Assembly: GCA_037349105.1 (NCBI GenBank)
Contig: JAYJMM010000110.1
Coordinates: forward strand, 1,364,001-1,428,000
Direction of reading: 5' to 3'
Length of the DNA stretch: 64,000 bases
From: Limnomonas spitsbergensis
Lineage: Eukaryota > Chlorophyta > Chlorophyceae > Chlamydomonadales
In this document: in pieces, positions 7,233-56,335 of the stretch
Layout: each line of letters opens with the position of its first letter
How positions within the stretch are numbered: the stretch's first letter is position 1
The notes under the pieces: model-generated
What the model saw: only the letters and a program-made list of their open reading frames with translations
Database searches by the model: none
Told to the model about the DNA's origin: nothing
Made by a program: the position numbers and the translations under genes

Positions 7233-7532
7233 ATGCTCGTCCACTGCAGCTCCAGCGCTGTCACCAGGTGCACCACCACCCGGCTCTCGGCCCTTCACCG
7301 TCCCTGCATCACATCGGCATCATCGAATAGGGGCGCTCTGAAGCAGCAACAACAGCAGAGGCATAGCCGACTGACTACGACGCAATGCTCGGCTGACTCA
7401 ACCGCATCACCCAGTCCGGTTCTCAAGATCGCGGTGACCGGCGCGGCTGGCAGGACTGGAGCGCTGATTGTGAAGAAGCTGTGCGAGCGGCCGCAGCAAT
7501 TTGTCGCGAGGGCGATAGTGCGCAGCGAGCAG
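7233..7532 (+). CDS. SDR exon 1: transit peptide and Gly-rich loop
   Basis: 100 codons, ending ...[10 protein letters not shown] at CAG|GTCGGT, phase 0. It contains the whole predicted plastid leader and the TGAAGRTG motif. Confidence 0.9.

Positions 7533-56335: not shown

Follow-up and report, generated by a model that had tools for sequence, protein, structure and literature searches.

Introns of the green alga Limnomonas spitsbergensis appear to lengthen by recurrent short local direct duplication, the copies being kept as splicing removes them, with a modest preference for intron ends; we put the probability of this reading at about three in four. The evidence comes from two genes in a 64,000-nucleotide stretch of contig JAYJMM010000110.1 (the window) and from introns elsewhere in the genome. 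The main sample comprised 65 introns from the two window genes and from 12 chaperonin and three kinesin loci, and the extended sample comprised 92 introns of at least 200 nt, including paralogue blocks; because paralogous loci are included, the introns are not fully independent. In the parts covered here, the published genome description (PMC11228838) gives a genome of 260.248 Mb in 124 contigs with a mean intron of 788 bp, places L. spitsbergensis together with UWO 241, ICE-L and C. eustigma in one clade, and does not mention intron duplication.

The two window genes, an SDR-type gene and RFC4, lie on the plus strand with 302 bp from the SDR stop to the RFC4 start (47597-47900; Table 1). Exons were joined by splice motif and reading frame, and neither frame contains a stop. 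Sixteen of the 17 introns are GT-AG and one, SDR intron 7, is GC-AG, with a GC donor (gcaagt) at 45807. The SDR protein matched PF13460 and PDB 1xq6 (E = 1.7e-77), and it is a homologue of At5g02240, which is matched by its residues 66-324. The identity of RFC4 was supported by RFC matches; its nearest named relatives are from Chlamydomonas eustigma (85% identical) and Chlamydomonas sp. UWO 241 (82%). No close second copy of either gene was found in the genome: all nine genome matches of SDR fall inside the SDR gene itself, and matches of RFC4 at other sites are only 37-69% identical. A minus-strand open frame of 580 aa at 1984-3726 gave no domain in a Pfam search.

Table 1. Gene models and local copies in the window (positions within the 64,000-nucleotide stretch)
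Feature	Position	Strand	Remarks
SDR-type gene (At5g02240-like), 9 exons	7233..47597	+	uninterrupted 338-aa translation
SDR exons 1-5	7233-7532, 9375-9464, 41080-41154, 41806-41883, 43066-43203	+	
SDR exons 6-9	44394-44460, 45736-45806, 46840-46913, 47474-47597	+	
SDR intron 2: degenerate first copies of exon 2/donor junction	9465..9752	+	copy 94 bases into intron, score 53
SDR intron 2: 89-bp satellite array; unit = decayed exon 2 end + donor + intron 2 start	9753..40162	+	TRF
SDR intron 2: exon 3 acceptor-edge copy	40974..41016	+	score 44, 84%; mostly exon
SDR intron 4: donor junction copy	41956..42009	+	score 39
SDR intron 4: 114-bp tandem copies of exon 5 acceptor junction	42606..43065	+	score 174
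SDR intron 5: donor junction copy	43323..43364	+	score 34; 1/256 other pairs as high
SDR intron 6: 93-bp tandem copies of exon 6 donor junction	44526..44828	+	TRF; score 74
SDR intron 6: exon 7 acceptor junction copy	45592..45643	+	score 84, 92%
SDR intron 7: donor junction copy	46277..46327	+	score 47
SDR intron 7: acceptor junction copy	46711..46731	+	score 37
RFC4 gene, 10 exons	47900..56335	+	uninterrupted 330-aa translation
RFC4 exons 1-5	47900-47934, 48005-48083, 48429-48508, 49656-49833, 51028-51149	+	
RFC4 exons 6-10	51648-51750, 52597-52673, 55487-55586, 55740-55928, 56306-56335	+	
RFC4 intron 2: acceptor-region copy	48277..48329	+	score 56
RFC4 intron 3: donor junction copy	48581..48622	+	score 34
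RFC4 intron 3: exon 4 acceptor junction copy	49487..49585	+	score 155, 89%
RFC4 intron 4: exon 4 donor junction copies, ~81-bp period	49931..50463	+	score 61 at 49931-50009; TRF 50028-50463
RFC4 intron 4: acceptor junction copy	50791..50850	+	score 41
RFC4 intron 6: exon 6 donor junction copy	51843..51906	+	score 63; inside 131-bp TRF array 51798-52119
RFC4 intron 6: exon 7 piece, junction not crossed	52474..52509	+	score 32
RFC4 intron 7: exon 8 acceptor-edge copy	55327..55375	+	score 48
RFC4 intron 9: weak donor junction copy	56156..56180	+	score 30

Probes of up to 60 exon and 60 intron bases were aligned to the remainder of their own intron, and a donor copy was accepted at a score of at least 30 if the junction was spanned by at least 5 bases. 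Nine donor sides carried such a copy (SDR introns 2, 4, 5, 6 and 7; RFC4 introns 3, 4, 6 and 9), and nine acceptor sides reached a score of at least 30 (SDR introns 2, 4, 6 and 7; RFC4 introns 2, 3, 4, 6 and 7). A preliminary description of the window had listed copies at 17 junctions and claimed that at least 10 of the 17 introns hold copies of their own boundaries; all 17 junctions do have a copy, the SDR intron 5 donor is an addition, and an own exon-edge or junction copy was present in 11 of the 17 introns. The acceptor of SDR intron 3 also reached 30, but its match consists of intron sequence only, with no exon-edge copy. RFC4 intron 1 (70 bp) was below the testable length, and own-junction probes gave no score of at least 30 in SDR introns 1 and 8 or RFC4 introns 5 and 8.

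Over the nine donor and nine acceptor sides, scores ranged from 30 to 174. The highest were those of the SDR intron 4 acceptor (its 114-bp repeats form a TRF array at 42606-43094 of 4.3 copies, 97%) and the RFC4 intron 3 acceptor, followed by the SDR intron 6 acceptor and the SDR intron 2 donor (83); the donor copy of RFC4 intron 9 was a weak case. RFC4 intron 3 holds two more, weaker acceptor copies, which precede the junction by ~250 and ~349 bases. The acceptor match of RFC4 intron 6 contains part of the exon but not the junction, the acceptor copies of SDR intron 2 and RFC4 intron 7 are mostly exon with 3-4 intron bases, and in RFC4 intron 2 the best match ends 5 bases before the junction while a further match spans it.

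When the probes were aligned to all other introns (targets truncated to 2000 bases; 256 non-own pairings for each side), a score of at least 30 was reached by 1/256 donor and 1/256 acceptor pairings, 2/512 in total. Shuffled exon-intron pairing had been proposed as the control. Reverse-complement junction scores did not exceed 24. For a wrong-side control, each donor probe was aligned to the intron upstream of its exon and each acceptor probe to the intron downstream of it; 1/30 scored at least 30, and this sole match (SDR exon 4) was to the far end of its short exon, a donor-side copy again. The junction copies in the SDR and RFC4 introns are therefore confirmed as real. Many diverge from their source junction by 5-25%, so they are not duplicated reads.

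Several other features of these introns were observed. Each 114-bp repeat of SDR intron 4 (42606-43094) contains, in frame and between AG and GT, 27 bases copied from the beginning of exon 5, and these copies could act as an optional micro-exon. An array of 45 units of 55 bp occupies 52756-55247 in RFC4 intron 7; most units contain cag/gtgag, which we take to resemble a zero-length exon (recursive splice site). As a junction copy this array was unsupported (best donor score 22). Telomere-like tracts lie within introns at 49865-49925 and 43723-43966, the former matching many genome sites.

SDR intron 2 is 31.6 kb long, and ~30.4 kb of it is the 89-bp array. The unit aligned to the exon 2 end, donor and intron 2 start with a score of 67, against a maximum of 30 for 500 shuffles and 13-19 for the other 16 donor junctions. 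With 340 anchors in the array, 333 units were exactly 89 bp, 98.7% identical to the consensus; homogenised multi-copy arrays of this kind, as known from tandem-repeat expansion, were found in some introns only. A 46-base piece of the unit has 211 exact copies genome-wide, all 211 within the window. Given the match to its own junction and the confinement of its copies, the satellite most likely arose from the SDR exon 2/intron 2 border and stayed local rather than having spread, in so far as an exact-match search can tell, diverged relatives being possible.

Junction copies recur outside the window. The boundaries there are estimates, placed with profile hits and the splice consensus as guides, and several of them are misplaced by some bases. 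Chaperonin-family introns were defined between neighbouring exon profile hits (32 built, 30 tested per side). At a score of at least 40, 3 donors and 11 acceptors of 30 per side had a match, compared with 0/30 on the reverse strand and with 0/870 donor and 3/870 acceptor pairings with other introns; the estimated junction was actually crossed in 4/26 donors and 6/26 acceptors. Kinesin introns (12 at three loci) gave fewer copies than chaperonin introns, with 1/9 tested per side at this score. Across introns of at least 200 nt, 23/110 junctions had a spanning copy at a score of at least 34, boundaries outside the window being estimated. The sharing of the pattern by unrelated genes, first described for SDR and RFC4, thus extends to chaperonin and kinesin introns. 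Its description as a genome-wide mode holds in part: it recurs at these loci, but only 65 or 92 introns were sampled, and since the gene and exon numbers given in the covered parts of the genome description imply ~100,000 introns (PMC11228838), 'genome-wide' is an extrapolation from the sample. Two related kinesin genes (L051 and L052, C124:7568586-7586693) lie ~12 kb apart, and one of them contains an apparently recent 89-bp donor-junction array, its boundary being estimated.

Three chaperonin gene pairs (L038/L039, L042/L043 and L044/L045), each on different contigs and with a median exon-block identity of 86%, gave information on the age of the copies. Such pairs hint at a possible genome duplication or hybrid origin. 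In 140 adjoining regions we found 34 exon-block copies in forward orientation, the count being capped at 6 per region, and 1 in reverse. At sites that differ between the pair, copies agreed with their own exon 199 times, with the paralogue 54 times and with neither 37 times, and 29/34 copies favoured the own exon, although using the own exon as query biases somewhat toward its state. Because they carry the own-exon state, the copies would have arisen after the paralogue split and appear to be mostly younger than the divergence of the paralogues. The own-side exon edge was the source of 33/34 copies, which, together with the wrong-side probes, bears out the earlier statement that donor copies lie downstream of the donor and acceptor copies upstream of the acceptor. 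This side matching follows from tandem geometry, since a junction-straddling unit leaves the protein unchanged only if its spare copy lies in the intron. Poor intron conservation between the paralogues was not taken as a sign of fast turnover: nothing could be aligned in 30/31 pairs and a fraction of 0.10 in one, as expected at 86% exon identity.

Duplication is not confined to junctions. In 500-nt chunks, the fraction of bases with a local direct duplicate was 0.494 in introns (48 chunks), compared with 0.061 in the gene flanks of the window (28 chunks), in which no Pfam domains were found, and 0.053 in those of nine chaperonin loci (30 chunks). The Mann-Whitney p was 6e-7 and 8e-8, and 5e-5 when window introns were left out; the comparison drew on introns of at least 500 nt, which may be long because they are duplicated, and on a small flank control (58 chunks). 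A random stretch chosen as a control (L049) had a coverage of 0.40 but contains a La-domain gene. Block-shuffled introns (3-mer blocks) had a duplicate fraction of 0.003. The fraction rose with intron length (rho 0.73, 65 introns), from 2% of bases in introns below 200 nt to 60% in introns of 1-3 kb; longer introns do offer more room for matches, but the block-shuffled introns gave next to none. It exceeded 10% in 32/65 introns and was 10% or less in 33/65. Introns of the paralogue pairs had mean duplicate fractions of 0.18 and 0.17, with none in either copy at 13/31 positions.

The arrangement of the copies is as expected of tandem duplication, in that the aligned length approximates the offset. 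Among nearest duplicate pairs, 90/166 had offsets of 60-120 bp, and the median ratio of aligned length to offset was 1.14 (60-75 bp), 1.04 (75-90 bp) and 0.99 (90-105 bp). BLAST conceals diagonals close to the main one, so the 60-bp lower limit is not biological; by TRF, 100/133 arrays had periods below 60 bp. Copies were direct and head to tail, as in tandem-repeat expansion, and inverted copies were almost absent, which speaks against repair of an inversion-prone kind. However, in 11/15 clean two-copy cases the aligned part was at least 19 bases shorter than the offset; such non-contiguous copies also call for template switching with spacers, insertion at a later time or partial decay. No consistent microhomology overlap was detected at the breakpoints of these 15 cases.

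Under the favoured reading, recurrent local duplication, an intron would grow as follows. Short segments (mostly below ~150 bp) would be duplicated repeatedly in direct orientation, often head to tail. Where a segment straddles a junction, the outer copy would keep its role at the exon edge and as the splice site, while the inner one, left in the intron, would be removed by splicing and decay. Repeated events would shift older copies inward, and some arrays would amplify to minisatellites or, in SDR intron 2, to a 30-kb satellite. Intron ends would be the source at about double the frequency expected under uniform placement. The copies are presumably spliced out, because the reading frames are intact. 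At the DNA level, we infer replication slippage, template switching or unequal exchange.

On whether junctions are duplicated preferentially, the results diverge: the coverage and probe views argue against junction targeting, and the family view argues for it. Duplicate coverage was greater in the intron interior than at the ends. At a score of at least 40, spanning copies were found for 36/128 and 32/127 interior probes and for 10/50 and 11/50 junction probes, so junction-spanning copies were no commoner than copies of random interior points. Repeat families gave the opposite picture. In 92 introns, a set from which SDR intron 2 was omitted because it is so long, 61 families were counted; 17 touched the donor exon and 20 the acceptor exon, with 5.9 each expected under uniform placement; 24/61 touched no exon. 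Under a conservative null in which the repeat period equals the unit length, the counts were 17 and 21 of 62 versus 8.8 expected (p = 0.004 and 0.00006). An earlier count that allowed an exon margin of 80 bases and covered 38 families from 54 introns (score 44) gave 8 donors and 16 acceptors versus 4.7 each. Subsets varied, some being weak: 4 donors (p = 0.10) and 5 acceptors (p = 0.03) versus 1.9 in the window; 0 donors versus 1.0 in profile-defined introns of the paralogue loci; and 4 donors (p = 0.01) and 3 acceptors (p = 0.08) versus 1.0 among families of at least 92% identity.

Slowly evolving exons could keep old copies detectable for longer, and for this reason exon sequence was removed in a further test. 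The outermost unit then covered position 40 from the donor in 16 cases and from the acceptor in 16, versus 8.6 and 8.4 expected (score 36; p = 0.003 and 0.004), and 14 and 15 versus 7.3 and 7.4 at score 44, position 40 having been picked after the positional data were viewed. Exon and intron parts of the copies at 10 window junctions were equally like their source (0.859 versus 0.846), so slower exon decay is not the main cause of the excess. We consider it likely, though not settled, that intron ends are preferred about two-fold; both selection and mutation may lie behind this. The idea that decoy copies selectively retain splice dinucleotides was considered and rejected: the dinucleotides were kept in 59/71 spanning copies, 11 of the 12 losses were at profile-estimated boundaries, and the per-position profile in the window had no clear excess. 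The earlier view that introns are built from copies of their own splice junctions thus stands only in part: junction families are ~2-3-fold over-represented, but duplication is intron-wide, many families are exon-free and the probe test gave no excess.

These data bear on junction-targeted duplication, in which splice-site features (polypyrimidine tracts, co-transcriptional R-loops or spliceosome pausing) make intron ends hot spots and interior repeats descend from junction copies. The family counts, the exon-free excess and the similar identity of exon and intron parts speak for it, and we regard it as possible, if doubtful, given that spanning copies are as frequent for random interior probes as for junctions, that coverage is higher inside and many families touch no exon, that several subsets are weak, and that position 40 was chosen post hoc and selection on survivors could yield the same excess. 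That splice junctions are mutational hot spots in this lineage, where a transcription- or splicing-tied process repeatedly duplicates the ~100 bases around splice sites into the intron, with inward growth and satellite seeding, we consider rather improbable.

Conversely, tandem duplication could be neutral and genome-wide with no preference for introns or junctions; tolerance by splicing would decide which duplications are seen, and the frozen exon would ease the detection of old junction copies. The similar probe-level rates at junctions and in the interior fit this explanation, as does side matching, which geometry forces. It is nevertheless unlikely, and without any preference already disfavoured: gene flanks have ~1/8 to 1/10 of the intron level, the end excess appears at the family level and with intron sequence only, and exon and intron parts do not differ in identity.

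Insertion of introners, transposons or satellites into introns is very improbable. TRF arrays and the 30-kb satellite do look like satellite DNA; the 89-bp unit, however, is similar to the donor junction of its own intron but to none of the 16 others, its exact 46-mer copies do not leave the window, and the RFC4 and chaperonin repeats have no family elsewhere in searches that skip very common words. The 7.6-kb RFC4 region had no repeat relatives elsewhere in such a search except a 69-base piece and a ~60-base telomere-like stretch, and a 3-kb piece around a chaperonin intron array matched, in a search of the same kind, only itself, three related-exon stretches and one 73-base stretch (77%). 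The 69-base piece, from RFC4 intron 6 (52209-52277), recurs at C123:4395369 with 87% identity. Three repeat sets searched genome-wide thus lacked the near-identical copies in introns of many genes that characterise introners, and most of 38 families leave one end of the intron uncovered by at least 100 bases, many entering the exon, where an introner extends nearly from donor to acceptor. The earlier rejection of introner-like insertion is upheld as far as these searches go. Chance similarity, low complexity or assembly artefact has a negligible probability and is already refuted for the strong cases, since, rich as the introns are in simple repeats, the shuffled pairings, reverse-strand scores and divergence of the copies given above all contradict it.

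Long introns are usually ascribed to transposons and drift. In the introns studied here, much of the sequence is directly traceable to local duplications, many with an exon piece that dates and orients them. The adjoining exon serves as a reference for each copy, which could make the rates and directions of intron growth measurable in one genome, and a satellite array was most likely born from an exon/intron border. The copies also raise the question of how the spliceosome chooses the true site among decoys.

Among the matches listed in searches of the open-licence PMC literature, judged by titles and abstract openings, none described introns growing to this extent by duplications that derive from junctions. 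Intronic minisatellites and satellites likewise form head-to-tail arrays in introns, and human introns have reportedly arisen from tandem arrays (Zhuo, 2007); here, in contrast, the unit is traceable to the splice junction of the host intron itself. Introners, in the parts of the reports covered, likewise place repeated sequence in many introns of an alga (PMC3488318; PMC9860276), but are dispersed over introns of many genes (PMC3488318), whereas no family elsewhere was found here in the cases searched. New introns formed by tandem duplication are known from a few genes, with examples in ATP2A1, a 24-bp repeat of fission yeast (PMC4974935) and Drosophila (PMC2891723), according to the covered parts of these reports. 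In AGGT tandem duplication, splice sites and intron sequence likewise derive from the exon (PMC4974935; PMC2891723), but introns are born from exonic segments; the units described here are not exonic segments and span the exon edge and existing intron, inside the intron. The nearest likeness is to potato RdRp, where, in the covered part of the report, a duplication likewise runs across an intron/exon border and puts the parental splice signals to use again, and a second, 83-bp tandem duplication inside the intron is also mentioned (PMC4974935). Boundary-crossing segments of this kind are what we found at the 23/110 junctions above. The potato case concerns a single gene with a new intron and new exon sequence, whereas here existing introns grow, in several genes, with intact frames and with arrays.
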